Below, one piece after another: positions 638 through 18,153 of a stretch of DNA of 64,000 bases. The position numbers and the translations under genes were made by a program. The stretch spans positions 62,001 to 126,000 of the forward strand of contig DAICZS010000002.1 in NCBI GenBank assembly GCA_027311025.1, written 5' to 3'. Origin of the DNA: Ferrovaceae bacterium. Its GTDB lineage: Bacteria; Pseudomonadota; Gammaproteobacteria; Burkholderiales; Ferrovaceae. A model generated the notes under the pieces. It had not been told where the DNA came from. It searched no databases and saw only the letters and a program-made list of their open reading frames with translations. Position 1 is the first letter of the stretch, and each line of letters opens with the position of its first letter.

Positions 638-693
638 GTCCAACACGGTCTTCGAAATCAGGGCTGGACTGCATCAATCACAACTATATTTCC

Positions 694-1134: not shown

Positions 1135-1138
1135 TGAA

Positions 1139-1924: not shown

Positions 1925-1932
1925 GCGCTATC

Positions 1933-3225
1933 ATGAAAAATCTATTCTCACTGCTATGCCTCTCATTTTTTCTGACAGGACCAGCGAGGTCTGCACAAAC
2001 GGAAAATGTACTTGGTTCACCTCGCTCGGACATAGTAAACGTCACCCAAGGTAAATCCGTACGCATTCCGACCGAATCTGATTTAGTACGAGTTTCGGTT
2101 GGTAATCCAGAGATTGCAGATGTGAGTCTCGTACGAAAAAGGGAAGTGTTCCTGCTCGGAAAAAAAATCGGCAGCACGAACATTTATCTGTGGACCCGAG
2201 ACAACCATATGATCATGATGGATGCTATTGTCTCCATTGATGTAGTCGGTTTACGTGAAAAACTGACAGAGTTAATGCCTGCCGAAAATGCAATTAAAGT
2301 GAGTGCAGCAGGTGAGTCCTACGTTTTAAGCGGACAAGTTGCCGATGCAGTGGCAGTGCGACAGGCCGTAGTGCTGGCGGAACAGTATGGTGGAAAGAAA
2401 GTAATCAACATGCTGGCGACTCAGGAAGTAGCCCAGGTGCTTCTTGAGGTCAAGGTTGCTGAAGTCAATAAAACCATAGATGATAAACTTGGGGCAAGTG
2501 GGTTATGGAGCGGAGATTCCGGTTCAAATCTTGGCCTAAACAGCGCATTTTCCTCGGGATCTGCTGGAAGTATCACGATGGGGAAATTAGCGAAACGTGG
2601 CTCAATGATTCTTGATGCAGAGATTAATGATGGCCGTGCCAAGATTTTGGCCGAGCCCAACATTGTAGCTATCAGTGGTCAAGAGGCATCGTTTCTGGCA
2701 GGTGGGAAAATCTATATTCCAATTCCACAGACCACAGGAATTGGACCACCAATGGTGACGCTCCAGGAAGAAGAATTTGGTATCGCACTGAAATTTCTAC
2801 CCACTGTTCTTAACGGTGGAAAAATTAACCTGCGCGTGAGCCCTGAAGTTTCTGAATTGTCTGCTACAGGAACGACTTTGGGTACAGGGGGTAGTCTCTC
2901 CGTGATTCCAACAATTACCACTCGCCGTGCCTCAACAACTGTAGAGCTTAATGATGGCCAGAGCCTTGCCATAGGTGGACTTATTAAAAATAATGTGTCT
3001 GAGGCTGCCAAGGCATTTCCTGGCTTAGGAGAAATCCCCATTCTGGGCGCACTATTTCGCAGCAGCGAGTTTCAGAGCGACCGTACAGAGCTTGTTTTTG
3101 TCATAACACCCCACATTATCAAGCCATCTGATAACAAATTGCCGCTACCGACGGACAATTTTACGACTCCATCAAGGTCTGAATTCCAGTTGGAAGGTAA
3201 AATGGAAGGAGAGAAACGGCAATGA
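1933..3225 (+). CDS. cpaC: Tad secretin (RcpA/CpaC)
   Basis: Outer-membrane secretin through which the Flp pilus emerges. I place the start at ATG 1933, because it gives a clean signal peptide ([21 protein letters not shown]); an in-frame TTG at 1921 overlaps the cpaB stop and would add four residues. The N-terminal part holds the pilus/BON-like domain ([21 protein letters not shown]). The C-terminal ~200 residues form the secretin beta domain, with [21 protein letters not shown] and the terminal [15 protein letters not shown] and PILGALFRS motifs. Length (430 residues) is normal for CpaC. Its stop overlaps the next start by 4 bp. Confidence 0.92.
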
Positions 3226-3542
3226 ACCCCCTGATAAAGCTGCTTGCGTCAGCCTCGTGCTTTTCGATTGTTTTGGGAGGTTGTACTGCACGCCAATATG
3301 ACATGGATTCGTCTATGGGTATTGCCGTCCACGAAAATCTCGCTGCACAAATCGCAAACCCGAATGGCACGCCCCCAACAGGTCCGCAAGGTCTTGCTGG
3401 CGGTCCTTCCAAGGCAGTCATGGATCGCTATGTCAACTCCTTCATGACGCCCCCACCGCCCGCAAATGCGTTTTCGATCGGTCTGGGATCGGGTGGGGGG
3501 CTTGCGACTTCCGCACCTGCATCTTCCGGAACTGCACCGTAG
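3222..3542 (+). CDS. Small lipoprotein of the tad operon (CpaD-like remnant or analogue)
   Basis: A 106-residue protein with a signal peptide ending in the lipobox LGGC (Cys21), hence a probable outer-membrane lipoprotein. After it comes [17 protein letters not shown], resembling the short conserved segment of CpaD/RcpB-type pilus lipoproteins (a G-x-AV-x-N-x-A-x-QI-x-NP pattern), then [11 protein letters not shown] and a Pro/Gly/Ser/Ala-rich tail. True CpaD is about twice this length, so this is a minimal version or an unrelated functional substitute. It starts inside the secretin stop (ATGA) and precedes tadZ, exactly where cpaD sits in many loci. Function is inferred from position and the motif. 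Confidence 0.72.
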
Positions 3543-3569
3543 GTGGTGTGTGTCGTGTAAAATTGCCTG

Positions 3570-4751
3570 ATGAAAATCACAGTACTTTCCGGTAATTCCT
3601 CCGCCCAGAACCTCAAAAGCATTCTGGATGAAAAGTGCCGCAGTGACCAGGTCGTCGTTCTTGAGCAGGCTGGCAACAAACTCAATATTGATGCCTACGA
3701 TGTGACACAGGCGGACCTTTTGATCCTGGACTGTCCTGATATCCAACAATTGGATTGGTCAGCAGTGGAAATGTTCAACCTCAGGCACCCGCAGTCCACT
3801 ACCGTCCTGATTTGCCGTGGAGACCTTGAACAAGTTCTGGTTCAGGCCATGCGCGTTGGGGTACGGGATATTCTCAGCGGCTCTGAGGTACAGGATCGTC
3901 TCCCGGAGGTCATTGAGCGAGCGAGAATACGTCTGGCAGCTTCTGCTGGGAATCGTTCGCTTGGAAAGATTCTAATTTTCATTCCCTGCAAGGGCGGTAG
4001 CGGCACATCCTTCATAGCCAGCAATCTGGCATATGTCTTGGGTGAAGTTCACCATAAACGAGTGCTTTTAGTCGATCTGGATCTACAGTTTGGCGATGCC
4101 TCATTTTACATCACTGATATCGATAACGGCCGTAGTCTTGGAGATGTAGTTCGGAAGACTGATCTCGATGGTCAAATGCTGGAATCCGCTTGTATACAGG
4201 TTGGAAAAAATACCTGGTTGTTACGTGCACCTCATAATCCAGAGCAGTCTGTGGGAATTACACCGGATCAGGTAGACAATATTCTGACAATTGCATCCCG
4301 ACACTTTGATTTCATTTGTGTTGATCTGGAACGAACATTAGACCCGCTTTCATTAAGGGCCATGGATCGTTCTGACCTTATTTTTCCGATCATGCAAACT
4401 GTGTTGCCATACGTACGCGGCGCACAGCGCCTTCAAAGAACCTTTCGGGCATTACACTATCCGGTGTCAAAAATTCGTCTGATTGCCAATCGTCAAGGTA
4501 AGTCAGATGACTTGGCACTTCCCAAGATTGAGGAAGCGCTGCAGACAAAATTTTATATGCAGTTGCCTAATGATTTCCCCAATGCAAGTGCTTCCATAAA
4601 TTCCGGTAAGCCGTTGTACGATATCTCCCCTGAAGGTCCATTGACCAATGCATTGATTCAGTGGGCGGATCAACTCCTAGGTGTTTCTAAGTCCAAACTT
4701 AATTCAACAACCAGCTCAGTTTGGCAGCGCATTTCGACTATATTTAAATAA
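3570..4751 (+). CDS. tadZ: Pilus localisation ATPase TadZ/CpaE
   Basis: A 393-residue ParA/MinD-superfamily protein that places the Tad machine in the cell. Residues 1 to about 125 form an atypical receiver-like domain (ILDCPDIQQLDW, TVLICRGDLEQVLVQAMRVGVRDILS). The ATPase domain follows, with a deviant Walker A PCKGGSGTSFIASNLA (about 140-155): the signature Lys is kept, but the usual second Lys of GKT/S is replaced by Thr, as is common in CpaE/TadZ. VLLVDLDLQFGDASFYI is the A' motif and FICVDLERTLDPLSLRAMD the Walker B region. It lies between the lipoprotein and tadA. Confidence 0.9.
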   Translation: MKITVLSGNSSAQNLKSILDEKCRSDQVVVLEQAGNKLNIDAYDVTQADLLILDCPDIQQLDWSAVEMFNLRHPQSTTVLICRGDLEQVLVQAMRVGVRDILSGSEVQDRLPEVIERARIRLAASAGNRSLGKILIFIPCKGGSGTSFIASNLAYVLGEVHHKRVLLVDLDLQFGDASFYITDIDNGRSLGDVVRKTDLDGQMLESACIQVGKNTWLLRAPHNPEQSVGITPDQVDNILTIASRHFDFICVDLERTLDPLSLRAMDRSDLIFPIMQTVLPYVRGAQRLQRTFRALHYPVSKIRLIANRQGKSDDLALPKIEEALQTKFYMQLPNDFPNASASINSGKPLYDISPEGPLTNALIQWADQLLGVSKSKLNSTTSSVWQRISTIFK

Positions 4752-4781
4752 CCGCTGCTCTTGGCAATCTGCGAGGGAACT

Positions 4782-6140
4782 ATGTCGTTGCGTGAGCTTT
4801 TAAACACATCAAATGTACAGTCGGCTGCAGAGCAGAGTGAATCGCTCGTTTCTGACGCAAATCGATTAGATGCTATTGCAATCCGCCTAAAATCTGAAAT
4901 TCATCTTGAGCTCCTCAAAAAATTTGACTTGTCTATTATGGACAAGATTTCAAGTGAGGAATTACGCCAGAGACTTGCGACGTTTGTCGATGAAGCCATC
5001 AAAGAAAAAAATCTTGGCTTGAACGAAAATCAGCGCAAATTATTAATAACTTCAATTCAAAATGAAGTCATGGGGCTTGGTCCTCTTGAGCCGCTTCTGG
5101 CTGATAACACGGTCTCCGATATTCTTGTCAACGGGCCTCACGTGGTTTATGTTGAACGGCGAGGGAAGCTGGAACTAACAAATATTCGTTTCACCGATGA
5201 TGAGCATCTTCTGAGAATAATTGAGAAAATTGTTTCTCGCATTGGAAGACGCGTTGATGAATCAAGTCCAATGGTAGATGCGCGTTTACCTGATGGTTCC
5301 CGAGTTAATGCCATTATCGCTCCACTGGCATTGGACGGACCATCTTTGTCGATTCGAAGGTTTTCTGCCGTCCCGCTGGGCGTAGACGAACTTGTGGAAT
5401 ACGGTTCCATGACTCGTGACATGGCAATGATGATAGCGGCCATGGTTAAATCCAAGACGAATCTGATTGTTTCCGGTGGGACAGGAAGTGGAAAAACAAC
5501 GATGCTCAATCTCATGTCCGGATTCATACCGGATGATGAGCGTATTGTCACAATTGAAGATGCTGCCGAGTTGCGTTTGCAGCAACCACACGTTGTTCGT
5601 CTTGAAACGCGGCCACCAAATATCGAAGGCGAAGGCGAAATAAATCAACGTGCACTAATCAAGAACAGCTTGCGCATGAGACCTGACCGAGTGATTGTTG
5701 GTGAAGTTCGAGGAGCTGAGGTGCTTGATATGCTTCAAGCTATGAACACTGGCCATGAAGGGTCCATGGCGACAATTCACGCAAATACAGCGAGAGATGC
5801 GTTGACGCGTCTTGAAAACATGGTTGGTATTTCTGGATTGAATCTACCGGTTCGCCCACTTCGGCAACAAATTGTTTCGGCGCTTACAGCCATCATTCAG
5901 GTATCTCGTTTGAGCGATGGAAAGCGCAAGGTAGTCAGCATTCTTGAAATAACGGGAATGGAGGGGGATATGATTTCTACCCAGGAAATATTCCAATTTC
6001 AGCAAACAGGTGTTGGTACTGATGGAACTGTACAGGGCCGTTTCAGGGCGACAGGAATACGTCCAAAATTTGCGGAGAAGCTTGCGGCACGCGGTACACC
6101 TTTGCCCGATTATCTGTTCGATCCAAGTCGTCACGCTTGA
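4782..6140 (+). CDS. tadA: Tad secretion ATPase TadA/CpaF
   Basis: Hexameric cytoplasmic ATPase that powers Flp pilus assembly (type II/IV secretion ATPase family). I choose ATG 4782 over an upstream in-frame TTG at 4761, because GAGGGA (4773-4778) lies just before it. Motifs: SDILVNGPHVVYVERRGKL in the N-terminal domain, Walker A SGGTGSGKTTMLN (near residue 230), the Asp box with IEDAAELRL, Walker B-type MRPDRVIVGEVRGAEVLDML (near 305) and the His box GHEGSMATIHANT. Length (452 residues) is typical. It is followed 9 bp later by tadB. Confidence 0.93.
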   Translation: MSLRELLNTSNVQSAAEQSESLVSDANRLDAIAIRLKSEIHLELLKKFDLSIMDKISSEELRQRLATFVDEAIKEKNLGLNENQRKLLITSIQNEVMGLGPLEPLLADNTVSDILVNGPHVVYVERRGKLELTNIRFTDDEHLLRIIEKIVSRIGRRVDESSPMVDARLPDGSRVNAIIAPLALDGPSLSIRRFSAVPLGVDELVEYGSMTRDMAMMIAAMVKSKTNLIVSGGTGSGKTTMLNLMSGFIPDDERIVTIEDAAELRLQQPHVVRLETRPPNIEGEGEINQRALIKNSLRMRPDRVIVGEVRGAEVLDMLQAMNTGHEGSMATIHANTARDALTRLENMVGISGLNLPVRPLRQQIVSALTAIIQVSRLSDGKRKVVSILEITGMEGDMISTQEIFQFQQTGVGTDGTVQGRFRATGIRPKFAEKLAARGTPLPDYLFDPSRHA

Positions 6141-6149
6141 AGAACTATC

Positions 6150-7121
6150 ATGGATAACTGGGCATATTCGATTCTCATTCTCGCATTTTTGGGATTGTTT
6201 GGCTTGATTGAATCTGTCATCATGCTTTGGAACGGTTGGAATAGGACCAACGTCAAAAAGCTTAAACAGCGTTTGCAAATTATTTCCGGGGAAATCCCTG
6301 AAATCAAGACCAGACGCCTTAAAAGAGGCGCTTTTAGCGAGAATGCCTCGCTTGACCGTTTCTTGAAAAAGTTTCAGAAACTGGACTCGCTTGATAGGTT
6401 ATTGCGCCAGGCAGATCAGCCCTATTCAGTTGCGCAAGTTTTATCAGCTTCAGCCGGCTTTTGTTTACTCGCCATGATTTTGACCTCTGCAGCGGACTCA
6501 AACCTCATAATGATAATTCTGGCCCCTGTTATTGCTGCGGTTTTACCGTTAATAATTTTACGGGTTCTCAGAAGTTCTAGAATGAAAAAGCTGGAAATTC
6601 AATTACCAGACGCACTTGACCTTTTAGGACAATCCATGAGGGCAGGGCATGCATTTTCCAGTGCGCTAAGAATGGTTGGTGTAGAGGGGCCTGAGCCCAT
6701 TGCCACAGAGTTTCGCATGACTTCAGATGAAATTAGTTTTGGTTCATCCATACGGGAGGGGATCGTAAATCTGGCTAATCGCGTGGATAGTATGGATATG
6801 CGCTACTTTGCTTTGGCAGTTCTAATACAAAGTGAAACTGGCGGCAATCTCAGCAATTTGATGCTCGATCTTTCAAAATTGATTCGTGAACGACTGAAAT
6901 TACGACGTGCTGTAAAGGTTATGGCGGCTGAAGGACGCTTGTCCGGGTGGATCCTTGGCCTACTGCCCTTCGGATTTGCAGGGATGATGGCAATTTTGAA
7001 TCCTGGGTATCTCAGTTTTTTCTGGATGGATCCTAGTGGTTGGCCTATCGTAAAGGTGATGGCGACGCTGCTGATTACGGGTGTTATCTGGATCAGAAAC
7101 ATTACAAATATTCGGGTATGA
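6150..7121 (+). CDS. tadB: Tad inner-membrane platform protein TadB
   Basis: A 323-residue GspF-family protein. It has an N-terminal membrane segment (YSILILAFLGLFGLIESVIML), a hydrophobic pair around residues 90-140, the cytoplasmic GspF helical domain (LPDALDLLGQSMRAGHAFSSALRMV and IQSETGGNLSNLMLDLSKLIRERLKLRR) and two C-terminal membrane helices. TadB pairs with TadC to form the inner-membrane base driven by TadA. The order tadA-tadB-tadC is invariant in tad loci. The gap to tadC is 14 bp. Confidence 0.92.
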   Translation: MDNWAYSILILAFLGLFGLIESVIMLWNGWNRTNVKKLKQRLQIISGEIPEIKTRRLKRGAFSENASLDRFLKKFQKLDSLDRLLRQADQPYSVAQVLSASAGFCLLAMILTSAADSNLIMIILAPVIAAVLPLIILRVLRSSRMKKLEIQLPDALDLLGQSMRAGHAFSSALRMVGVEGPEPIATEFRMTSDEISFGSSIREGIVNLANRVDSMDMRYFALAVLIQSETGGNLSNLMLDLSKLIRERLKLRRAVKVMAAEGRLSGWILGLLPFGFAGMMAILNPGYLSFFWMDPSGWPIVKVMATLLITGVIWIRNITNIRV

Positions 7122-7135
7122 GGAAGCATTAAGTC

Positions 7136-8107
7136 ATGCCATCAATTTCATTTTTGCTTTTTCTCGTGATTGGCTTACTCTTAGTCCTTGGTTTTACAGG
7201 CTTGATGCTATTCAAATTGTTTATTCCATCCGCAAATCGCAGATTGAAAAAAATGGTGGAGGAGGAGCGTCGTAATTATGGAGACGAGGGCTCATCTTTT
7301 GAACAGGCAGGTCAGTATATTACAGGGAAGTTAAAGCCACTTGCTCGCCTTTCTGCTCCTGAAGGACCTTGGGATGTTTCCCCGTTTCGCATGAAACTGA
7401 TGGCAGCCGGCTACCGCAGCCCATCTGCGGGTATGGCTTATCTAGGACTTAAAACTTTTTTAACTTTTATTTTTCCTATACTTTTTCTTATTCTGTCGGC
7501 GATTATTAAATTCTCTCTGGACTCGACAGAAATGGTGCTCTATATACTTGCATGTTCTGCATTTGGCTATCTCTTGCCAAATTTTGTTCTGTCAATTATG
7601 GTTTCGAAACGACGCCGTGAACTTTACGAGAATTTCCCTGATGCCTTGGATCTTATGCGAATTTGTATAGAAGCTGGGTTATCACTTGACGTGGCGATTT
7701 CCAGAGTAGGGGAGGAGATGCGCATTAGAAGCAAGGCTCTCTCCGATGAGTTCATGCTTGTTGTTCTTGAACAAAGAGCAGGCTCCGCTCGTAGTATGGC
7801 ACTAAATAACCTAGCAATGAGAGTTGGCATAAAGGATATCGACGCGCTCGTGTCAACATTGGTTCAAGCCGACAAATTTGGCACCAGCATTTTAGACTCC
7901 CTAAAAGTGCACTCAGAAAATTTCAGATTATCACGGCGACTCAGAGCTGAAGAGCAGGCTGCAAAAATTCCAACGAAAATCTTATTGCCATTAATTACTT
8001 GTATTTTCCCATTGTTGTTCATTTTGATTCTGGGGCCAGCCATAGGCAACATTCGACATGCAATGAATGGAGAGTCTCCCACTCCTGAGAGTGAACAAAT
8101 CCCCTGA
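7136..8107 (+). CDS. tadC: Tad inner-membrane platform protein TadC
   Basis: The second GspF-type platform protein, 323 residues. The conserved core FPDALDLMRICIEAGLSLDVAISRV and LVSTLVQADKFGTSILDSLKVHSENFRLSRRLRAEEQAAKIPTK (split here: VQADKFGTSILDSL, RLRAEEQAAKIPTKILLPL) matches TadC. Hydrophobic helices occur at the N terminus, near residues 100-150 and at the C terminus. It is the last recognisable tad gene on the plus strand; the next frame, a GT87 glycosyltransferase, starts 12 bp later, suggesting one transcript. Confidence 0.92.
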   Translation: MPSISFLLFLVIGLLLVLGFTGLMLFKLFIPSANRRLKKMVEEERRNYGDEGSSFEQAGQYITGKLKPLARLSAPEGPWDVSPFRMKLMAAGYRSPSAGMAYLGLKTFLTFIFPILFLILSAIIKFSLDSTEMVLYILACSAFGYLLPNFVLSIMVSKRRRELYENFPDALDLMRICIEAGLSLDVAISRVGEEMRIRSKALSDEFMLVVLEQRAGSARSMALNNLAMRVGIKDIDALVSTLVQADKFGTSILDSLKVHSENFRLSRRLRAEEQAAKIPTKILLPLITCIFPLLFILILGPAIGNIRHAMNGESPTPESEQIP

Positions 8108-8119
8108 GGGCGACTTCTT

Positions 8120-9316
8120 GTGTCAATAAAGCGGTATAGCCATTGGCTTAACCCTAGGCGTCTACGCCTCTACACGAGAACCATGGCTTTGGTTTTTACA
8201 ATCCTCTTATTTGGCCTGATATTTCATTCAAATGTAGTGAGCCCGGATGGTATTTCTCTAGGGTTTGATTTCAGCGTCTTTTGGAGCGCATCTCATCTGG
8301 CTTTACTTGGCCATCCTGAAGATGCGTATCAACTAGTAAAATTGCACAGCGTTATTCACACAATCAACCCATCGGTAAAAGAAGGTTCATATGGATGGTT
8401 TTACCCCCCGAATTACTTTCTAATCATCGCTCCTCTCGCTTACATTCCTTATCTTGTTTCTTACCTGTTGTTTATCAGCTTAACACTTTTTGCATACCTG
8501 TTTGTCGTTCACAGGATATATGCAAATCCCGAGGGCCTATGGTGTCTCGCTGGGTTTTCAGGCTTATGGGATAACCTAGTAACAGGTCAAAATGGTTTTT
8601 TGACTGCGGCTATTGCGGGTGGCTCGCTTCTTCTTATAGACAAACGCCCAGTAATAGCCGGCATGTTAATTGGAATTCTCTCCATAAAGCCTCAACTTAT
8701 CCTTCTTTTCCCAATCGCTTTGGTTGCTTCTAAAGCATGGAAAACACTTATCGTGGCCATCCTTACCAGTGCGCTATCATTAGCCGCCTCAACAATGCTA
8801 TTTGGCGTGGTAACTCTGGAGTCATGGGTGAGGAGCATTGATCTGGCAAGATCCCTTCTTGAATTTGGTGGAACGCATTTTTGGATGCGAGTGCCAACCG
8901 TTTTTTCATTTCTACATTTATTGGGTATACCGCTTCAGTGGGCTTATCTTGCGCACTTCTTTGTCGCTGCTATGGTAGCAACATCAATATGGATAACCTG
9001 GAAGAGCACTGTGGAACCTGAATTGCGAAATGCTGCACTCATAACAGGTTCATTGCTGATCAGTCCGTACATTCTGATCTACGATCTGACATGGCTTGCG
9101 CTTCCAATTGCCTGGATGTCAAAGATTGGAATAGAGCGGGGTTGGTTGCGCTGGGAGATTGAGACTCTAATCCTTGCCTGGCTGTTGCCCGCAATGATGC
9201 TGCTTATCGCGAAGTTTGCGCCATTCCAGGTTGCACCTTGGGTGTTACTGACATTGTTAATCCTGATCCTAAGGCGGACCAGCTCTTACAACAAGCAGAT
9301 GATTGCATATTCATGA
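8120..9316 (+). CDS. GT87-family (DUF2029) polytopic glycosyltransferase, paralogue 1
   Basis: A 398-residue multi-pass membrane protein with GTG start 8120 after a GAGGG (8106-8110). It belongs to the DUF2029/GT87 group of GT-C enzymes, which use polyprenyl-phosphate sugars on the periplasmic side. Conserved blocks shared by all four paralogues here: SHWLNPRRL, GFDFSVFWSASHLALLGH (D50 in the first periplasmic loop is the likely catalytic acid of the GT-C fold), GSYGWFYPPNYFLI, TGQNGFLTAAIAGG, IKPQLILLFPIALV and SPYILIYDLTWLALPIAWM. The acceptor is unknown. Its 12-bp distance from tadC suggests a link to the pilus. Confidence 0.8.
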   Translation: MSIKRYSHWLNPRRLRLYTRTMALVFTILLFGLIFHSNVVSPDGISLGFDFSVFWSASHLALLGHPEDAYQLVKLHSVIHTINPSVKEGSYGWFYPPNYFLIIAPLAYIPYLVSYLLFISLTLFAYLFVVHRIYANPEGLWCLAGFSGLWDNLVTGQNGFLTAAIAGGSLLLIDKRPVIAGMLIGILSIKPQLILLFPIALVASKAWKTLIVAILTSALSLAASTMLFGVVTLESWVRSIDLARSLLEFGGTHFWMRVPTVFSFLHLLGIPLQWAYLAHFFVAAMVATSIWITWKSTVEPELRNAALITGSLLISPYILIYDLTWLALPIAWMSKIGIERGWLRWEIETLILAWLLPAMMLLIAKFAPFQVAPWVLLTLLILILRRTSSYNKQMIAYS

Positions 9317-10497
9317 ATTCTGGCAATAGCCATTGGCTGAATTTTAAGCGCCTCAGCGTATATCCAATAATTTTTTTTTCTTTATACATAATCATCGGCG
9401 TGGGTGCGGTGTGTTATTGGTGGTCTCAAGGATCTCCGCACAACATGATCGTTTCAGACCAAACCGTATTCTGGACGGCAGCACAGATGGCCATATCGGG
9501 GCATGCTGCTGAAGCTTATATTCCAGATCAACTACATAAAGCGATGGCCCTGATTGCGCCTGACATAAAAGGTGCTTATGGCTGGTTTTATCCGCCTACG
9601 TTCTATCTCCTGATCCTGCCTTTGGGGCTGCTTCCTTATTGGGGTGCATATGGTTGTTTTATGATTGTTTCAGTGACGGCCTATGTTGCTGTATTTAGAA
9701 AAATCGCCATAGGAAAAACAGCGATGTGGTTGCTGGCAGCATTCCCTGGAATCTGGATTAATCTACTCACCGGACAGAATGGTTTACTTACAGCAGCACT
9801 AGCTGGTGCTGCCCTATTATCATTGGAAAGGAAAGGCATCCAGGCAGGAATATTGATCGGCCTGCTGGTGGTAAAGCCGCACTTGGCACTTTTTTTCCCA
9901 GTGGCATTGATAGCCCATAAAGCCTGGAGAATACTGATAATTTCTGTCTTGACTGCCTTGTTATACATGAGCATTAGTGTATTGTATCTGGGGCCTGATT
10001 CCCTCGATGCATGGCAACATAGCCTGGATATCGCACGTACCATTATGGAAAATGGCAAGACATCCCCAATGATGCCAACCATATTTTCATTTATGCGACT
10101 ACTAGGCGCAGCGCCATTGATCTCATATGCGGTACATGGGTTAGTGTCAATATGGGCGGCGACTATCGTTTGGATCGTCTGGCGTTCAGAAGTCACTTGC
10201 CCTTTGAAAGCAGCATCGCTGATGACAGCAACTATGCTAGCCAGCCCTTATTTATTTGAATACGATTTGGCATGGCTTGGGTTGCCTATTGCCTGGATCG
10301 CAAAAATTAGTATCGAATCGACATGGACGCCTGGAGATAGGGAAGCACTTCTGGCTGCCTGGATCCTTCCTTTGGTTGTGGTTGTGTTTGCATTGCTCAC
10401 AAAAATTCAGATTGGTCCTTTTGTCTCTGCGGCCTTACTGTGGACAATTACAAGACGTGTTCCAGGATTCAAATACTGGGAGTGGCGAAAAACATGA
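9313..10497 (+). CDS. GT87-family polytopic glycosyltransferase, paralogue 2
   Basis: A 394-residue paralogue of its upstream neighbour. ATG 9313 overlaps the preceding stop (ATGA) and aligns the conserved NSHWLNFKRL N terminus. A frame extension to TTG 9238 would duplicate upstream coding sequence and is rejected. Same blocks: VSDQTVFWTAAQMAISGH (D49), YGWFYPPTFYLLILPLGLLPY, NLLTGQNGLLTAALAG, KPHLALFFPVALIAHKAWR, SPYLFEYDLAWLGLPIAWI. About nine or more hydrophobic segments. Substrate cannot be read from the sequence. Translational coupling implies a fixed ratio to paralogues 1 and 3. Confidence 0.8.
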   Translation: MNSGNSHWLNFKRLSVYPIIFFSLYIIIGVGAVCYWWSQGSPHNMIVSDQTVFWTAAQMAISGHAAEAYIPDQLHKAMALIAPDIKGAYGWFYPPTFYLLILPLGLLPYWGAYGCFMIVSVTAYVAVFRKIAIGKTAMWLLAAFPGIWINLLTGQNGLLTAALAGAALLSLERKGIQAGILIGLLVVKPHLALFFPVALIAHKAWRILIISVLTALLYMSISVLYLGPDSLDAWQHSLDIARTIMENGKTSPMMPTIFSFMRLLGAAPLISYAVHGLVSIWAATIVWIVWRSEVTCPLKAASLMTATMLASPYLFEYDLAWLGLPIAWIAKISIESTWTPGDREALLAAWILPLVVVVFALLTKIQIGPFVSAALLWTITRRVPGFKYWEWRKT

Positions 10498-11687
10498 CGG
10501 TAGGAGATTATTGGTTAAATTCATCGCGCATCAAATTCTATAGTGGATTGACTCTGGTATTTTTCCTGACGTTTGCCTTTGGATTTATCTGGTTTTCAAA
10601 TTTTGTCAGCCCCAAAGGTTACGACATTGTTTCTGATCTTACCGTCTTCTGGTCAGCTTCTAACCTTGCATTGAATGGGCATGCCTCAGACGCTTACATC
10701 GTTTCAAAGTTACGCGAATTTGTACTGATGTTTTATCCGGATGTTAAGGAAACATTTGGATGGTTTTATCCACCTTCATTTTATTTGCTCATCCTGCCGT
10801 TAGGATTGCTTCCTTATGTCCCAGCGTATTTTGCGTTTATTTTACCTACTCTCGCATTTTATACATTGGTCGTTCTGCGCATCGTTAAAAATACTGAAGC
10901 CCGTTGGGTGCTGGCATCGTTTTCTGGATTATGGATTAATCTTCTTAGAGGGCAGAATGGTTTTCTGACAGCTGCCATAGGCGGATTGGCACTGCTTCGC
11001 TTGGAAAAGCATCCCCTATTTTCGGGTGTAGTGCTGGGATTACTATCAATCAAGCCTCACTTGGCGCTGATGTTTCCAGTTGCCCTGATTGCGATAGGCG
11101 CCTGGCGCACACTGATTACAGCATTTTTTTCTGCTCTTGCCATACTGATTGCTGGTATGGCGATACTGGGAGTTGACACATTCCCAGCATGGATTCATAG
11201 CCTCAATGTGGCTCGCCAATTCACGGAAAATAATGGTCCTTCATACTGGATCCATATGCCGACCATATTTGCATTTTGCCGTTTGTTTGGTGCCTCCATT
11301 GCTGTTTCATACACTGCTCATATCCTTGTAGCTGTTGGAGCAACATCTGCTGTGTGGTGGGTTTGGCATTATTGTCGTGAATATACCCTGCGCGCAGCAA
11401 CACTAACCACCTCAACACTCTTGGTCAGTCCTTATATCCTGGAATACGATTTGACGTGGCTTGCACTTTCAGTAGCATGGATGAGCTCATTTTCATTGCA
11501 ACACGGATGGAAAATGGGCGAACGTGAGGTCATGATTCTGGTCTGGGCACTCCCACTGCTATGTAGCGTTGTCGCAAAAGCGACCACCATACAGCTCGGA
11601 CCATTGGGGGTACTATTACTTGAGTGGGTTATCCTGAGACGGGTGTGGCTGTTACGAAATGATGAATCGTGTCAACGCTGTCGATAG
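10494..11687 (+). CDS. GT87-family polytopic glycosyltransferase, paralogue 3
   Basis: A 397-residue paralogue with ATG 10494 overlapping the previous stop (ATGA). An in-frame GTG at 10440 is rejected because the protein family begins at the WLNSSRIKFY block. Conserved blocks: VSDLTVFWSASNLALNGH (D48), TFGWFYPPSFYLLILPLGLLPY, NLLRGQNGFLTAAIGGLALL, SIKPHLALMFPVALIAIGAWRTL, SPYILEYDLTWLALSVAWM. It ends 15 bp from the end of the convergent fourth paralogue, with no obvious terminator between them. Confidence 0.8.
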   Translation: MTVGDYWLNSSRIKFYSGLTLVFFLTFAFGFIWFSNFVSPKGYDIVSDLTVFWSASNLALNGHASDAYIVSKLREFVLMFYPDVKETFGWFYPPSFYLLILPLGLLPYVPAYFAFILPTLAFYTLVVLRIVKNTEARWVLASFSGLWINLLRGQNGFLTAAIGGLALLRLEKHPLFSGVVLGLLSIKPHLALMFPVALIAIGAWRTLITAFFSALAILIAGMAILGVDTFPAWIHSLNVARQFTENNGPSYWIHMPTIFAFCRLFGASIAVSYTAHILVAVGATSAVWWVWHYCREYTLRAATLTTSTLLVSPYILEYDLTWLALSVAWMSSFSLQHGWKMGEREVMILVWALPLLCSVVAKATTIQLGPLGVLLLEWVILRRVWLLRNDESCQRCR

Positions 11688-11701
11688 ATGCTACGAATCT
11701 A

Positions 11702-12877
11702 TTAAGCCGGACGAGCAATGATCCATCCACGACGCATGATTGAGAGCAGCAGCAGTAGCAATACCATTGGACCAATCTGAATGTGGGTAAACCAGGCGAT
11801 TGTGAAAAGTGCAATGGGCAACAACCACGCTGCAATTAATACCTCACGGTCTCCTGGCATCCAGCCTGCTTCAATTCCTGATTTTGCAACCCATGCAATA
11901 GCCAAAGCAATCCATGTCAGGTCGTAGAAGTATAGATAGGGGCTGACCAAAAAGGTTGCCGTCATAAGCGCGGCATTTTGCATTGCCTGATTCCTGCTGT
12001 ATCGCCAGATACGCCATACCATTACTGCAACGATAGCGGCGATCGTGAAGTGCAGGACATAGGCCCAAGCTATAGGAAAACCAACCAACCGTAATGCGGA
12101 AAATACTGTAGGCATGACGATTGCGATTGTGTCAGATTCAAGACACATTGCCTTGGCTTGCCCTATGCTTTGCAACCAGGCCATGAAAGTTCCCGGTCCC
12201 AATACAGTGACACTCACTCCCATCAGAACGGCTGCTACCATGCCTGCGGTAAAGATTGTGCGCCACGCGCCAATAGCAGATAACGCAACAGGAAACAAAA
12301 TTGCAAGTTGCGGCTTTATCGAAAGCAAGCCAATAAATATTCCTGACAGGATGGGCCGCTCACGCAAAAAGAGTAGAGCAGCTCCTGCGATCGCAGCCGT
12401 TAGAAATGCATTTTGCCCATCCATTATATTGATCCAGACAGCGGAATATCCGGCTAGACCCCATAATGCCAACCGATCCTGAATAATTTGACGAAAAACA
12501 GCTACATATCCAGCGAATGTACATGTCATAAAGATGAAATAGGAAGTCAGATACGGAAGCGTAGCCAAAGGAAAAATGACCAAGTAAAAAGTGGGCGGAT
12601 AAAACCATCCGAAGCGACCCGCTACGACAGATTTGTCCAGTGCTGAAACTGCATTCCATAATTTCGTGGAATTGTAGGCGTCTATTGCGTGACCGGTAAT
12701 GGCAAGGTGTGATGCCGCCCAAAATATCCGAAAGTCGGATATGAGTGAGATTCCATTTGAAATAACAAAATCCGAGTGAAAGAAAAGAGTACCGAAATAT
12801 AGCAACAGCATTAACTGCGAAACGCATGAGTAGAGTATGAAGCGTTTCCGGTTCAGCCAATGTGTTGACTTAATCAT
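11702..12877 (-). CDS. GT87-family polytopic glycosyltransferase, paralogue 4 (inverted)
   Basis: A fourth GT87/DUF2029 protein, 391 residues, convergent with the other three. I place the start at ATG 12877 (MIKSTHWLNRKRFILY), which matches the other paralogues; a longer frame from TTG 12916 would read through the duplicated 38-bp leader. Blocks: SLISDFRIFWAASHLAITGH (D48), GRFGWFYPPTFYLVIFPLATLPY, DGQNAFLTAAIAGAALL, SIKPQLAILFPVALSAIGAWRT, SPYLYFYDLTWIALAIAWV. The reading frame is intact. An IS3 element lies 42 bp upstream of the start and separates the gene from its original upstream region. Confidence 0.8.
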   Translation of the reverse strand: MIKSTHWLNRKRFILYSCVSQLMLLLYFGTLFFHSDFVISNGISLISDFRIFWAASHLAITGHAIDAYNSTKLWNAVSALDKSVVAGRFGWFYPPTFYLVIFPLATLPYLTSYFIFMTCTFAGYVAVFRQIIQDRLALWGLAGYSAVWINIMDGQNAFLTAAIAGAALLFLRERPILSGIFIGLLSIKPQLAILFPVALSAIGAWRTIFTAGMVAAVLMGVSVTVLGPGTFMAWLQSIGQAKAMCLESDTIAIVMPTVFSALRLVGFPIAWAYVLHFTIAAIVAVMVWRIWRYSRNQAMQNAALMTATFLVSPYLYFYDLTWIALAIAWVAKSGIEAGWMPGDREVLIAAWLLPIALFTIAWFTHIQIGPMVLLLLLLSIMRRGWIIARPA

Positions 12878-12881
12878 GCTG

Positions 12882-12919
12882 TGCCCAATCAAATTCTGTG
12901 TGGCATTTGACTTCAACTT
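12882..12919 (+). repeat. 38-bp direct repeat, left copy flanking the IS element
   Basis: These 38 bases (starting TGCCCAATCAAATTC and ending TTGACTTCAACTT) are identical to 14109-14146 and abut the left IS terminus exactly. On the minus strand the repeat contains a TTGAAG and a TTTGAT 17 bp apart, a possible -35/-10 pair for GT87 paralogue 4 (start 12877). A target-site duplication of this length is not expected for IS3 elements (normally 3-5 bp). Confidence 0.9.
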
Positions 12920-12946
12920 TGACCTGAGTGGCTAATTTGTAGCCGT

Positions 12947-13777
12947 TCAGACTGCGAATCCAACACCGATTTTAGACATTTCCAGCCGTGCCTGGGCCGG
13001 CGCTTTATAACTCAAGGCACTGTGCGGTCGTTGATGGTTGTAAAACTGTCGCCAGTTTTCAATCAGCGTCCGCGCTTCCCGCAGATCCCTGAACCATTCC
13101 CGATTCAGGCATTCGTCCCTCAACTTTCCATTGAAGCTTTCGACGAACCCGTTATGCCACGGCTTGCCGGGCGGTATGAACGCCGGTCCCACATTCTGGT
13201 CGCGCAGCCATTTCATGACACGGCTCGCTGTAAATTCCGCACCCTGGTCAGAACGGATGTATTCCGGCTTTCCATAGAGCCTCATCAGCCTGGTCAGTGT
13301 CAGGATCACATCCTGTGAAGTCAGCGAAGTCGCTACTTCAATGGCCAGGCATTCCCTGGTATGTTCATCCAGAACGCACAGCATCCGGAACGTGCGTTTC
13401 CCGGCCAGTCGATCATGAACGAAGTCATAGCTCCAGACATGGTTCGGCTTCACCGCACCAAGCAACCGCATGTCGCTGCCACAGCGCCGTCGCCGGGGAC
13501 GCCGCCTCGGCAAGCTCAGCCCCATCAGCGACCACAGGCGCTTAACCCGATCTTCCCCTTCACCAACCCAGGCGGCACTGCGCCGGTACCCGAAGCGCGG
13601 AAACTGCTGGGCGGTTTCCATCAGCCTGGCCCCCAGTTCCTGGTCCTTCTTCGGCTGCCTCAGCTCATAGCCTTCCACCCGGCGACTAAACCCCAAGTAG
13701 CGGCAGGATGCCCTTTTGGATACGCCCCGACCGGTCAAACAGGCCATCGCCTCGCGCCGACCTGTCGGGGAACTCAT
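12947..13777 (-). CDS. IS3-family transposase OrfB (DDE catalytic subunit)
   Basis: The 276-residue catalytic part of the transposase. It shows an N-terminal HTH_21-like region ([26 protein letters not shown]) and the integrase core with the DDE triad: Asp in [18 protein letters not shown], Asp in [16 protein letters not shown], and Glu in [17 protein letters not shown]. The ending with [14 protein letters not shown] is typical of the family. The start codon overlaps the OrfA stop (ATGA), and a run of seven A at the junction suggests that the active OrfAB fusion is made by -1 ribosomal frameshifting. Confidence 0.92.
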
Positions 13778-14037
13778 TTTTTTCCGGCAAACTCCTTGAG
13801 CCCTTCGATCACCAACAGCTGCTCCGCAACCATGCGCTTGAGCTTGGTGTTCTCGGCTTCCAGATCCTTGAGCTTGCGGGCATCAGACACTTCCATGCTA
13901 CCGTATTTGCTTCTCCAGCGGAAGAAGGTCTGCTTGGTCACATTGTTCTTCCGGCAAACGTCATCAATCGTGACGCCTGGCTCTTCAGCCTCCCGCAAAA
14001 TGCGGATGACCTGTTCTTCCGAAAATCGCTTTTTCAT
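13774..14037 (-). CDS. IS3-family transposase OrfA (HTH DNA-binding subunit)
   Basis: An 87-residue protein. [17 protein letters not shown] and [19 protein letters not shown] form the HTH_Tnp_1 helix-turn-helix that binds the IS ends. The second half ([20 protein letters not shown]) is a leucine-zipper-like coiled coil used for multimerisation. It ends at GGA-AAA-AAA-TGA on the minus strand, a plausible slippery heptamer for the frameshift into OrfB. Confidence 0.92.
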
Positions 14038-14108
14038 CTGTAAACCCCCTGGTAAAAGTTACCATAGGATTCACAGCCTGGCTGGCTACACGTTTGCCAC
14101 TCAGGTCA

Positions 14109-14146
14109 TGCCCAATCAAATTCTGTGTGGCATTTGACTTCAACTT
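14109..14146 (+). repeat. 38-bp direct repeat, right copy flanking the IS element
   Basis: Perfect copy of 12882-12919, directly adjoining the right IS terminus. Sequence identity stops exactly at both ends (next base T at 12920 versus C at 14147; preceding base G at 12881 versus A at 14108), so the duplicated unit is delimited by the IS junctions. Confidence 0.9.
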
Positions 14147-14261
14147 CACCGGAGCAAATCAAACCTGTATTGCATGCTCATATTGCAGTTCAATCAGGGG
14201 TTCGCAGCTGCGAATGGTTGAATTGATTATGTTTCCCCATTGTATTTGGGCTTTTGATTCA

Positions 14262-14290
14262 TTGACCACTGAAACGCCACACTATACATT
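14262..14290 (+). promoter_or_regulatory. Candidate promoter for the HigA-like gene
   Basis: TTGACC at 14262-14267 is followed after 17 bp by TACATT (14285-14290); TATACA (14283-14288) at 15 bp is an alternative reading. It lies 48 bp before the ATG of the HigA-like gene. Consensus match only. The rest of 14147-14261 shows no gene I can support; in particular no HigB toxin frame is seen there. Confidence 0.35.
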
Positions 14291-14337
14291 TGGTCTCAAG
14301 AAATCAACACTTGAATAGGCAGTTGGAGGCATCGCAA

Positions 14338-14649
14338 ATGGTTAACAAGATCAGCCCAAAACATCCAGGGGAAATCCTTCGGGATCATGTATTGCCTGCA
14401 TTGGGGCTCACTGTTACACAAGCCGCATCCCAACTTGGCGTCACACGAGCAGCGCTGTCCAGAGTCTTGAATGGGCACGCGGCGATATCACCTGAAATGG
14501 CATTAAGGCTAGAACTTTGGTTGGAAAAAGTACGTGGTGTTCGAGCCGATTTGTGGGTTACGAAACAAGCCTCATATGATTTGTGGCAGGTGCGTAGGAA
14601 ATTTAAACCTAAGGTAAAAGCTGCAAATGCACTAAAGCTAGCTGCATGA
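14338..14649 (+). CDS. higA: HigA/VapI-type antitoxin, apparently without a toxin partner
   Basis: A 103-residue XRE-family DNA-binding protein. ATG 14338 is chosen because GGAGG (14325-14329) lies at proper distance; an in-frame upstream start would add 16 atypical residues. HPGEILRDHVLPALGLTVTQAA followed by LGVTRAALSRVLNGHAAISPEMALRLELW (helix-turn-helix about residues 23-60) is diagnostic of HigA. HigA normally neutralises a HigB RNase and represses its operon through the palindromic operator. No HigB frame is found immediately up- or downstream, so it is an orphan antitoxin or a regulator. It sits between the IS element and rpfF. Confidence 0.82.
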   Translation: MVNKISPKHPGEILRDHVLPALGLTVTQAASQLGVTRAALSRVLNGHAAISPEMALRLELWLEKVRGVRADLWVTKQASYDLWQVRRKFKPKVKAANALKLAA

Positions 14650-14726
14650 ATCCGTCAGGGTTTCGGAACTAAGAGGGTACCAGTATTTTCAACCAAATTG
14701 ATACATCTGAAGCAAGGAGAAGGAAA

Positions 14727-15620
14727 ATGGAACTGATTTCAGACACAAAAGCCTTGTTAGATACAAAGTACACGCAAATCGCGACTGAATTTAACGCTGA
14801 GCACGGAGTGCTTTGGACACAGCTTAAGCAGGATGAAGTTCCATGTGTCACACTCCAATTTCTCAAAGAATTACAGCATCACCATGACTCAATTGAGAAT
14901 TCTGGAGGACAGCTTTGGATTGATGGAGATATGCATGTCATCCGTTATTCCGTTTCATCATCTTTAACACCCGGCGTATTTAGTTTGGGTGGGCAACTCT
15001 CTTTGTTTGGTGAGTTGATCAGAACAAAAAATCGTGATGCTCTGATGCATTACGGTATCGAATGCATCAACATGTTGTTCCCGCGAATGAATCGTTTTTA
15101 TTTACCGCTTACGACTATAGCACTTGTGCAGGGAGACGCACTTGGAGGCGGGTTTGAAGGGATTCTAGTCAGTGACGTCATCATCGCTGAAAGGGGGAGT
15201 CAAATGGGCTTTCCTGAAATCTTGTTTAATCTATTTCCAGGCATGGGTGCTTATAATTTACTTGCTCGCAAAGTTGGTACAGCACTTGCTGAAAAAATGA
15301 TCCTTGGCGGCAGAATCTATTCGGCCGAAGAGTTGCACGAAATGGGAATCGTAGATGTACTGGCAGAATCTGGTGCAGGAATTCAAGCTGTTTATGATTT
15401 TGTGAAGAAGCAAGAACGGCGCGCAAACGGATTTAGGGCAATTCAACAGGTACGGCAACGTTACAATCCAGTAACCTACGAAGAGCTTATGGACGTCATC
15501 CGGATTTGGGTTGACGCCGCCCTTCGCCTGAATGAAAAGGATCTAAAGGTGATGGATCGGTTTGTCCGTTCTCAGGAAAGGGCGTATTTAACAAAACAAG
15601 AGGAATATCTCACTGCGTAG
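14727..15620 (+). CDS. rpfF: DSF synthase RpfF
   Basis: A 297-residue crotonase-superfamily enzyme that makes a cis-2-unsaturated fatty acid (diffusible signal factor) from acyl-ACP, combining thioesterase and dehydratase activity. The start has a good AAGGAG upstream (near 14713). The two catalytic glutamates of RpfF are present with the right spacing: E144 in GDALGGGFEGILVSD and E164 in MGFPEILFNLFPGMGAY. The overall pattern (GGQLWIDGDMHVIRYSV, LFGELIRTKNRDALMHYG) is RpfF-like rather than a generic enoyl-CoA hydratase. Its 3' end overlaps the convergent sensor kinase gene by 11 bp, as part of an rpfF/rpfGC locus. Confidence 0.9.
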   Translation: MELISDTKALLDTKYTQIATEFNAEHGVLWTQLKQDEVPCVTLQFLKELQHHHDSIENSGGQLWIDGDMHVIRYSVSSSLTPGVFSLGGQLSLFGELIRTKNRDALMHYGIECINMLFPRMNRFYLPLTTIALVQGDALGGGFEGILVSDVIIAERGSQMGFPEILFNLFPGMGAYNLLARKVGTALAEKMILGGRIYSAEELHEMGIVDVLAESGAGIQAVYDFVKKQERRANGFRAIQQVRQRYNPVTYEELMDVIRIWVDAALRLNEKDLKVMDRFVRSQERAYLTKQEEYLTA

Positions 15621-18153
15621 ATGATGGGACTAATGAAACTCTATCAGATTTACTGAGATAGGCAATCAGGGCTGCTTGAGTTGCTTTGAAACGCTGTTGG
15701 GCCAAGGCTACCAGAGGCTCGGCATGCTCTGATAGTTCATTCAAATCAAGCTGCATCAAATCTCGGCAAACTAGATGGAGAGATTCTGCGCCAATATTTC
15801 CCGCACTGCCTTCGATTGTATGTGCCAATTCCTTCATCGTCTGGTAGTCCTTTCTGGAAATTGCAAAATGCATGGCTTCAAGTAACTTTTCAGTTTCAGA
15901 AATAAAACCACGAATGACAATGGGCATAAAATCTTCCTGTCCCTCACCCAGTAATTCAAGATGACGCAGAGTCGATTCCTTCACCAAATTGACGGCTGTT
16001 GATGCGGGTTTGTCTTGCAACTGGTCTTTGAATTCTTCATTATTAGTGCTGGAATTTACCGCTGTGAGTCGACTTATTGCATCCAGTAATGTGACAGCAT
16101 CAACAGGTTTGCTCATGTAAGAATCTGCACCAGCTTCTTCACACTCGCTCATGGCTTCAGTGGTTGCATTTGCTGTAAGCACAATCACTGGAGTCGGAGG
16201 TTTTTGTCGTGACATTGCCCGGTGGATTTTGAGTACATCAAGCCCGCTCATCAGAGGCATATTCATATCAAGAATGATAAGCCCATAATTCTTGTTCTCG
16301 AGCTTATCTAGGGCCTCTTCGCCATTTTCTGCAAGATCAACCCGATGCCCACCGTATTCTAGAATCTTGGAGATGATTTTTCTACTGGTTCCATTATCTT
16401 CTGCCAGCAAAATTGAAATTCCTGTTTTTTCAAGAGCATTTCGTTGATAGTGCTCTCTGAATGAAATTACCCCTTGATGTGGCTGGGGGGTCATGATGCC
16501 GTGTAATGCATTGAAAAGCAGTGTTTTGTCCACTGGGACACGCAATAAGCAGGAGTACCCTGCTTCAAGTAGACTCTTTTCACCCATGTTTTGTAGATCA
16601 GATGCGACTAAAATCAGAGCGACGTCTCGAGAAGGAATAATGGTGTGCACACGATTAGCAAACTCGACAACGTCCATGCCAAGGTTTTGTGGGGTGCATA
16701 GAACAATAGTGTGCTTTTGCAACTCTGATGGAATTTTTTTAAGACGATCAAAAAAATTAGGTATTGAAATTTCGTGATGAAAATGCATTGCCCACCCATT
16801 CAAATACATTCCAAGCGAATCACGTTCATTGATTTTCATTCCCAATGTAATGACTCTGAGTTGTCCCAGACATCGAGGGGCCAAATTGACTTTTGTTGTA
16901 GTCTGCTTTTCGAAAGGTAGTTCAAACCAGAAGACGCTTCCGACACCCGGTTCACTTTGAAGCCCCATATCCCCACCCATGAGAATGGCTAATTGTCTGG
17001 AGATGGTGGTTCCAAGGCCGCTACCTCCATACTGGCGAGAAATATCTGCACTGGCTTGAGTAAAGCTTTCAAATATATCTTTCTGAGCATTTGCTGCAAT
17101 GCCAATACCAGTATCAATGACTTCGAATCTTATTCTTGTCGTTTCTTCGTTCTGATGAAGCGTGCTAACGCGTAGTTCTACACTTCCCCGATCCGTGAAC
17201 TTAATGGCGTTACCAACCAAGTTAATAATGATCTGTCGGAGGTGAAGAGTGTCCCCTTTGAGCAAAAAGCACGTGTCTGAGCTAAACCGGACTTCTAAGC
17301 GTAATCCTTGAAGCTTTGCCTGCGATTTGAACATCTCAAGCGTGCCTCGAACCAACTGATGCAAATCAAAATCGATAATTTCACTGACCAATTTTCCGCT
17401 TTCAATCTTTGAGAAATCAAGCACATTTTCTATGAGTTGTAACAGTGTTTGCGCTGAAATTTTTAATGTATTTACTAAATCAAACTGTTCACCGTTCAGT
17501 GGCGTTGTCGTCAATAAATCACTGGTTCCTATGACGCCATTTAATGGAGTACGCATTTCATGACTCATATGAGCAAGAAACCTGCTTTTGGCCATATTGG
17601 CTTCTCGAGCTAATTTGATTGCGTTATTGAGTTGCTTGAGGAGTTTCAACAGATATAGCGGAATTAAAGTTAGGGTGAGCATCAAACCGACTGCCAAAAA
17701 TGGTTGAGAATTCCAGAATGGATTAAGCGTTACAACCATGGCGAATCCAACCAAACTGAGCAGGTAGGAGACAATAAGCGAAGGTATTCCGTATCGAATG
17801 CCATTGCCCACAATGACCCACAGGTAAATACCAAACAGTAGAAACCCCATTTCTTGGAGATAAAGCAGTGCATAGGTGATGGCTCCGATATCTGCAATCA
17901 TCGAAACCCATTGTCGCTTTCTTGAACCTACCTGCTTGAAAAGCAGCAGAAAAAACAAACCGACTGAAATGATTAGATAAATTATTGAAAATACGTATAC
18001 ATTCGACGGGATGACATGCGTTTGGTTAAATAGATTTTCTATTGACATGTAAAGAAAAATCGCCAGAGAATAAACTACCCTGAGCGACACCTGCTCATAT
18101 TCACCTTCACGTCCTCTAACTTGCTTGATAAAAAAGTGAATCCTTTTTTTCAT
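15610..18153 (-). CDS. rpfC: RpfC-like hybrid sensor histidine kinase
   Basis: An 847-residue hybrid kinase predicted to sense DSF. The N-terminal ~170 residues form about five hydrophobic helices. HisKA has H198 in MAKSRFLAHMSHEMRTPLNG, the same position as in Xanthomonas RpfC. The HATPase has an N box (N315), DTGIGI (347-352) and GGSGLGTTISRQL (G2 box with the RpfC-type TT). Residues about 430-555 look like a degenerate receiver lacking an obvious phospho-Asp. A true receiver follows, with D629 in LIILDMNMP, and a C-terminal HPt domain with H778 in LAHTIEGSAGNIGA. It overlaps rpfG by 4 bp. It is about 120 residues longer than the classical 726-residue RpfC because of the extra pseudo-receiver. 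Confidence 0.88.
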   Translation of the reverse strand: MKKRIHFFIKQVRGREGEYEQVSLRVVYSLAIFLYMSIENLFNQTHVIPSNVYVFSIIYLIISVGLFFLLLFKQVGSRKRQWVSMIADIGAITYALLYLQEMGFLLFGIYLWVIVGNGIRYGIPSLIVSYLLSLVGFAMVVTLNPFWNSQPFLAVGLMLTLTLIPLYLLKLLKQLNNAIKLAREANMAKSRFLAHMSHEMRTPLNGVIGTSDLLTTTPLNGEQFDLVNTLKISAQTLLQLIENVLDFSKIESGKLVSEIIDFDLHQLVRGTLEMFKSQAKLQGLRLEVRFSSDTCFLLKGDTLHLRQIIINLVGNAIKFTDRGSVELRVSTLHQNEETTRIRFEVIDTGIGIAANAQKDIFESFTQASADISRQYGGSGLGTTISRQLAILMGGDMGLQSEPGVGSVFWFELPFEKQTTTKVNLAPRCLGQLRVITLGMKINERDSLGMYLNGWAMHFHHEISIPNFFDRLKKIPSELQKHTIVLCTPQNLGMDVVEFANRVHTIIPSRDVALILVASDLQNMGEKSLLEAGYSCLLRVPVDKTLLFNALHGIMTPQPHQGVISFREHYQRNALEKTGISILLAEDNGTSRKIISKILEYGGHRVDLAENGEEALDKLENKNYGLIILDMNMPLMSGLDVLKIHRAMSRQKPPTPVIVLTANATTEAMSECEEAGADSYMSKPVDAVTLLDAISRLTAVNSSTNNEEFKDQLQDKPASTAVNLVKESTLRHLELLGEGQEDFMPIVIRGFISETEKLLEAMHFAISRKDYQTMKELAHTIEGSAGNIGAESLHLVCRDLMQLDLNELSEHAEPLVALAQQRFKATQAALIAYLSKSDRVSLVPSSTQ

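Follow-up and report, generated by a model that had tools for sequence, protein, structure and literature searches.

What do four glycosyltransferase genes of family GT87 do at the end of a Tad pilus operon? The question is raised by a 64,000 bp stretch (the window) of the 2.23 Mb, 127-contig genome of a Ferrovaceae bacterium (Burkholderiales; assembly GCA_027311025.1, contig DAICZS010000002.1, positions 62,001 to 126,000). The genes, named GT1 to GT4, lie directly behind tadC (7136-8107, plus strand; PF00482, E 5.3e-15): GT1 (8120-9316, 398 amino acids, GTG start), GT2 (9313-10497, 394 amino acids) and GT3 (10494-11687, 397 amino acids) are on the plus strand, and GT4 (11702-12877, 391 amino acids) is on the minus strand. 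As a preliminary description of the window had reported, GT1 starts 12 bp after the tadC stop and the three tandem genes are coupled, with four-base ATGA overlaps between GT1 and GT2 and between GT2 and GT3; GT4 is convergent to GT3, 14 bp from its stop, and is therefore transcribed separately. A search of the complete 2.23 Mb found no further GT87 genes. We propose, with a probability of roughly 60%, that GT1 to GT4 constitute an accessory periplasmic module that glycosylates the Tad pilus with polyprenyl-phosphate sugars.

Linkage of GT87 genes to Tad loci

The Ferrovaceae sample comprised 32 genomes with 18 tadC genes of the window's Tad type (type 1), 17 of them with downstream sequence. 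A GT87 gene is next to tadC in all 17 informative loci (in one of them it is cut by the contig end) and starts between -29 and +28 bp from the tadC stop wherever both ends are readable. None of the 13 Ferrovaceae loci of a second Tad type carries a GT87 gene, including the one in the window's own genome, and the difference from type 1 is pronounced (17/17 versus 0/13; Fisher 8e-9, kinship ignored). This complete-looking second Tad locus (L136; G000:C72:66000-85900), with a tadC identity of 38% and a G+C content of 61%, provides an internal control. In the Ferrovum-like genus g2 (L066:5286-8659, and loci L067, L131, L064 and L021), a GT87 pair is followed by a PRK07208-type flavoprotein, very distantly similar to UDP-galactopyranose mutase, and by a membrane protein of approximately 625 amino acids belonging to no known family.

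Outside the Ferrovaceae, a sample of other Burkholderiales contained four places where less than 15 kb separates GT87 from Tad, with an expected number of 0.08. Co-occurrence of GT87 and Tad in these non-Ferrovaceae genomes was not clearly above the base rate (5/16 against about a quarter), and the signal is one of physical linkage, not of co-occurrence. For the Burkholderiaceae, 249 genomes were covered and the counts are lower bounds, made among the matches listed (the best 150 or so): in genomes with both genes, 94 of the 119 listed GT87 genes are less than 25 kb from tadC, against 0.9 expected, and 59 of 69 genomes have a tadC-linked GT87 among these matches. The figures are inflated by relatedness, yet they involve several genera and two arrangements, with GT87 either at a distance of 2.8 kb from tadC or next to flp and 12-17 kb away from tadC. 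Tad, GT87 and the donor-lipid synthase gene gtrB (see below) were found together in 12 of the 16 Burkholderiaceae loci read, and in most of these 12 the flp genes diverge from a single GT87 gene or a pair of them, next to which gtrB is found. The pairing is also present in Ralstonia and Cupriavidus, and in two Chlorobi loci, with seven (L009) and five (L012) GT87 genes near flp; on the first of these, a Chlorobiales contig, the seven genes are in tandem behind tadB, tadC and flp (L009:3000-11982).

In a tree of GT87 proteins, most Tad-linked members fall in one well-supported clade, with a few linked ones elsewhere. A phylum-wide look found alphaproteobacterial GT87 genes to be mostly unlinked to Tad, and the link is therefore clade-specific and not general to GT87; the one in genome G615, at a distance of about 5.6 kb, may be due to chance. 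Overall, the adjacency of GT87 and Tad is not a matter of chance: it has been kept by descent and is seen again in other lineages. A lack of recurrent tadC-GT87 linkage in other genomes had been named in the preliminary description as grounds for giving up a functional tie to Tad; the search was run and decisively gave the opposite result, and with recurrence in Ferrovaceae, Burkholderiaceae and Chlorobi the tie is strongly supported.

A tie to the pilus need not mean that a pilus protein is modified. The GT87 enzymes could make or modify a glycan or glycolipid of the cell surface that cooperates with the pilus, such as a pilus-bound polysaccharide, leaving all Tad proteins unmodified. The mutase-like flavoprotein and the 625-amino-acid membrane protein behind the g2 pair would suit such a role, as would an acyltransferase near the Ralstonia locus and the activity of PimE, the closest relative of solved structure, on a glycolipid (PMC12041525). 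Against these stand the fidelity with which the Ferrovaceae GT87 genes accompany one of the two Tad types and are absent from the second, the position of flp or tadC as the nearest conserved genes in different phyla, and the fact that no gene for the polymerisation or export of a polysaccharide could be recognised as recurring among the loci read. We regard a surface glycan as a somewhat unlikely product of these enzymes.

Family, fold and active site

GT87 proteins are GT-C enzymes that use polyprenyl-phosphate sugars as donors. All four proteins of the window match PF09594 (GT87) with E-values from 7e-34 to 1e-37 (GT1, 7.4e-34; GT2, 1.1e-37; GT3, 2.7e-36; GT4, 1e-35) and 118-130 bits, against a curated cut-off of 25, and GT2, GT3 and GT4 are 41-46% identical to GT1. 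The sequence blocks previously listed as common to the four are shared in general, except that HWLN occurs in three of them, GT3 having YWLN, and that the block given as GQNGF/A is spelled GQNGF, GQNGL, GQNGF and GQNAF in GT1 to GT4, respectively. Across 47 homologues, D50, Y95-P96, G156-Q157, K190-P191 and G229 are invariant.

The comparison with known GT-C structures that had been suggested for these proteins was carried out on an AlphaFold 2 model of GT1 (mean pLDDT 95, pTM 0.93). The only PDB matches with E<=0.001 were to PimE, a mycobacterial GT87 mannosyltransferase (TM 0.62-0.68), followed by ALG6, ALG3 and PIG-U with weaker E-values and plausible probabilities; ALG6 and ALG3 are GT-C enzymes acting with lipid-linked sugars, and PIG-U is a related protein. 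A single-sequence PDB search with the four proteins gave weak and implausible matches only, to the mitochondrial pyruvate carrier, which was rejected as a relative. A 47-row family profile aligns to PimE (E 1.6e-4), with Y95, Q157 and K190 falling on PimE Y92, Q163 and K195, and we infer from its position in the family that D50 is the counterpart of PimE D58. Mutation of Y92, Q163, K195, D58, Y62 or W319 abolishes PimE activity (PMC12041525). The features of a GT87 enzyme are thus present: a GT-C fold, a first periplasmic loop that carries the catalytic Asp, and a phosphate site of Lys, Gln and Tyr. Because of the invariant residues, the fold match and the alignment with residues essential in PimE, and given what is known of the family, all four proteins probably are functional enzymes that face the periplasm and transfer sugars from polyprenyl phosphate.

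Order and divergence of the paralogues

First-position GT87 genes form one clade (support 99) across the Ferrovaceae genera tested, to which GT1 belongs, and second- or last-position genes form a separate clade (99), to which GT3 belongs; genomes with two GT87 genes carry one of each type. GT2 falls in a third clade (98) with genes of G021, G016 and G011, as an accessory paralogue common to one other genus, and GT4, the extra convergent paralogue, is unplaced and stands alone. As judged from the tree, GT1 and GT3 are ancient paralogues whose order has been kept through the family, and successive sugar transfers are therefore likelier than redundancy; the pattern fits a two-step core (GT1, GT3) with added steps. 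Of two ideas put forward earlier for the number and coupling of the genes, the ordered ancient groups support successive sugar additions, and the other, subunits of one complex, is unsupported.

The same tree bears on the proposal that the genes are redundant, recent tandem duplicates hitch-hiking in the tad operon without any Tad role. The variable copy number, 2 to 7 across genomes, would be expected of such duplicates; the separation of GT1, GT2 and GT3 into genus-crossing clades with conserved order would not, nor would invariant catalytic residues or linkage in several GT87 branches and arrangements. Redundant duplication was rejected on the paralogue tree, and hitch-hiking is highly improbable.

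Predicted donor pathway

In Ralstonia, a GtrB-like gene of glycosyltransferase family 2 directly follows the GT87 gene, and its homologue in the window's genome, gtrB (C127:54407-55351), is 57% identical. The divergent neighbour of gtrB is gtrA, the genome's sole PF04138 match, and the divergent pair was present in 11 of 11 relatives checked. The pair (contig C127) is unlinked to the GT87 genes (contig C50), and the two sets do not form one operon. Of the 16 Ferrovaceae with GT87, 15 have GtrB, versus 4 of 12 without (Fisher 0.001, with kinship ignored and genomes with truncated loci left out). On sequence evidence, gtrA and gtrB are predicted to complete a synthase-flippase-transferase pathway in the genome. 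The GT-C, polyprenyl-phosphate-sugar mechanism proposed in the preliminary description is thus strongly supported, both by the PimE-like fold and residues and by the presence of this donor pair.

At the Tad/GT87 site of Cupriavidus, homologues of DprE1, DprE2 and decaprenyl-phosphate phosphoribosyltransferase are also encoded (L015:9226-14221). They represent the route to polyprenyl-phospho-arabinose, the type of D-arabinose donor supply on which TfpW of Pseudomonas aeruginosa relies, and the site is a candidate for an arabinose-modified Tad pilus. A 503-amino-acid membrane protein with no Pfam match is encoded in the same interval, beside Tad and two GT87 genes. A search of the window's genome for DprE1, made without a positive-control genome, gave no match, and its sugar is therefore probably not arabinose.

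A putative glycosylation module of the Tad pilus

We propose the following scheme for the module. Cytoplasmic GtrB would charge undecaprenyl phosphate with one sugar, and GtrA would flip the charged lipid across the membrane. In the GT87 active site, facing the periplasm, D50 would act as base, and the lipid phosphate would lie at Y95, Q157 and K190. The enzymes would work one after another, adding sugars to a Tad component that is not yet assembled and still resides in the inner membrane. The acceptor would most likely be the Flp pilin, at Ser/Thr near its C terminus, or otherwise the pseudopilins TadE or TadG. GT1 and GT3 may perform two conserved steps, with GT2 and GT4 adding lineage-specific sugars. 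The resulting change of the pilus surface could serve adhesion and biofilm formation in acid or, alternatively, masking from pilus-binding phages, as for TfpW/TfpO of Pseudomonas aeruginosa. Acceptor, sugar, donor use and order of action are all inferred here, and the GT87 set is regarded as good candidates for the enzymes of Tad-pilus glycosylation.

Several observations weigh against this scheme. PimE W319 and H322 are not conserved in the family according to the profile alignment (a Y-D pair, usual in GT87, is found here at PimE H321-H322), and PimE itself modifies a glycolipid. GT4 is on the opposite strand. The four GT87-free Ferrovaceae noted above have gtrA and gtrB, which must therefore have some other use somewhere. 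In the Burkholderiaceae, roughly every second Tad locus of this class lacks a listed GT87 gene within 25 kb, and GT87 is therefore dispensable for the Tad pilus. Finally, a comparison of Flp from linked and unlinked loci yielded no diagnostic glycosite motif.

The acceptor could also be TadE, TadG, RcpA or the lipoprotein of the locus rather than the major pilin, with the pilus tip or the secretin concerned; this is a sub-case of the favoured module, and its probability overlaps with that given for the latter. TadG of this genome is, by eye, rich in G/N/S/T repeats, and the positions of the GT87 genes, at the flp end or the tadC end, do not point to Flp in particular. In Burkholderiaceae and Chlorobi, however, GT87 adjoins flp and not tadE or tadG, and we consider an acceptor other than Flp unlikely.

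Extending the favoured glycosylation module beyond the Ferrovaceae, we tentatively suggest, well aware that this may prove too broad, that GT87 with GtrB/GtrA represents a widespread and hitherto unrecognised branch of Tad-pilus glycosylation in Burkholderiales and Chlorobi. Ordered GT-C enzymes, up to seven, would build a lineage-specific oligosaccharide directly on Flp, sugar by sugar, from varying donors (polyprenyl-phospho-arabinose in Cupriavidus), diversifying a pilus surface code.

Locus layout and neighbouring genes

The Tad (type IVc) locus is complete, with flp, prepilin peptidase, cpaB, secretin, tadZ, tadA, tadB, tadC and tadE/G together. The window begins inside tadE, whose 5' part occupies 1-263 on the minus strand (PF07811, E 7.8e-19, on L005), with the remainder and tadG (PF13400, E 5.5e-14, on L005) upstream; both genes are divergent from flp. 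The main row, all on the plus strand, starts with flp (467-637), which encodes the favoured acceptor, a 56-amino-acid class III prepilin (EKG|VTAIEY) of the Flp profile family, and continues with the prepilin peptidase gene tadV/cpaA (694-1134; PF01478, E 2.3e-19), cpaB/rcpC (1139-1924; homologues occupy the same position in Ferrovaceae Tad loci), the secretin gene rcpA/cpaC (1936-3225), a CpaD-like small lipoprotein gene (3222-3542; weak PF09476 match, conserved position), tadZ/cpaE (3570-4751), the ATPase gene tadA/cpaF (4785-6140, approximate start) and tadB (6150-7121; PF00482, E 3.1e-14), followed by tadC and the GT87 genes. The assignments of rcpA, tadZ and tadA are based on comparison of Ferrovaceae Tad loci. 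Upstream of tadG (L005:6424-11281), sequence judgement points to a secreted protein that resembles filamentous haemagglutinin and contains GLUG-type repeats, adjoined by a two-partner-secretion-like transporter.

Directly behind GT4 is an IS3-like transposase gene with an integrase core domain (13777-12947, minus strand), followed by a HigA-family antitoxin gene (14290-14649, plus strand). A set resembling the Rpf/diffusible signal factor quorum-sensing system (14727-19262) adjoins the Tad-GT87 block and comprises an RpfF-like crotonase (14727-15620, plus strand; score under the curated RpfF cut-off), a hybrid histidine kinase with receiver and Hpt domains (18153-15610, minus strand) and an HD-GYP response regulator (19262-18150, minus strand); six further Ferrovaceae genomes also have the RpfF-like gene in synteny near GT87. 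The Tad-GT87-Rpf block (1-19262) has a G+C content of 46%, versus 58% for positions 19300-64000; in a congener (L137) this locus has 57%, and the drop starts some 10 kb upstream of position 1. Lateral acquisition of the block is possible.

Comparison with known glycosylation systems

To our knowledge, no enzyme is known for the glycosylation of Flp pilin. The candidate enzyme set described here is conserved, comes with a donor pathway and is physically linked to Tad loci in Ferrovaceae, in Burkholderiaceae and in some Chlorobi. It opens the glycosylation of Tad pili to testing and gives the large GT87 family a likely role that goes beyond the glycolipids of actinobacteria. Differences among Tad-bearing bacteria in adhesion, biofilm formation and phage sensitivity may also be due to it. 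The GT87-Tad pairing was found undescribed in the open-access literature (subscription papers and preprints being outside this coverage).

PimE resembles GT1 to GT4 in family, fold, catalytic Asp and equivalents of Y92, Q163 and K195, and differs in its phosphatidylinositol mannoside acceptor, its 16% identity, its lack of linkage to a pilus and the replacement of W319 and H322 in the family of GT1 to GT4. TfpW of P. aeruginosa, a GT-C arabinosyltransferase encoded by a pilin accessory gene, glycosylates a type IV pilin (PMC11841053). It acts on a type IVa pilus and not on Tad, with a D-arabinofuranose donor, while DprE1 was not found in the genome of the window; in Cupriavidus, D-arabinose donor genes (DprE1) do lie beside Tad and GT87. 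A third precedent is the scheme of a GtrB/CsbB-type synthase, a GtrA-type flippase and a GT-C transferase (PMC5836110). All parts of such three-part lipid-linked glycosylation are present in the window's genome, and GT87 and gtrB are adjacent in Burkholderiaceae; here, however, gtrA and gtrB are unlinked to GT87, there are several GT87 enzymes, and the target is tied to a pilus and not to O-antigen or teichoic acid. The Flp1 fimbrillin of Aggregatibacter actinomycetemcomitans, likewise a Tad pilin, is reported to be glycosylated (Inoue 2000, as cited in PMC6182317). Individually, the enzymes are ordinary members of GT87; the Tad-tied module is a new element among known glycosylation systems.

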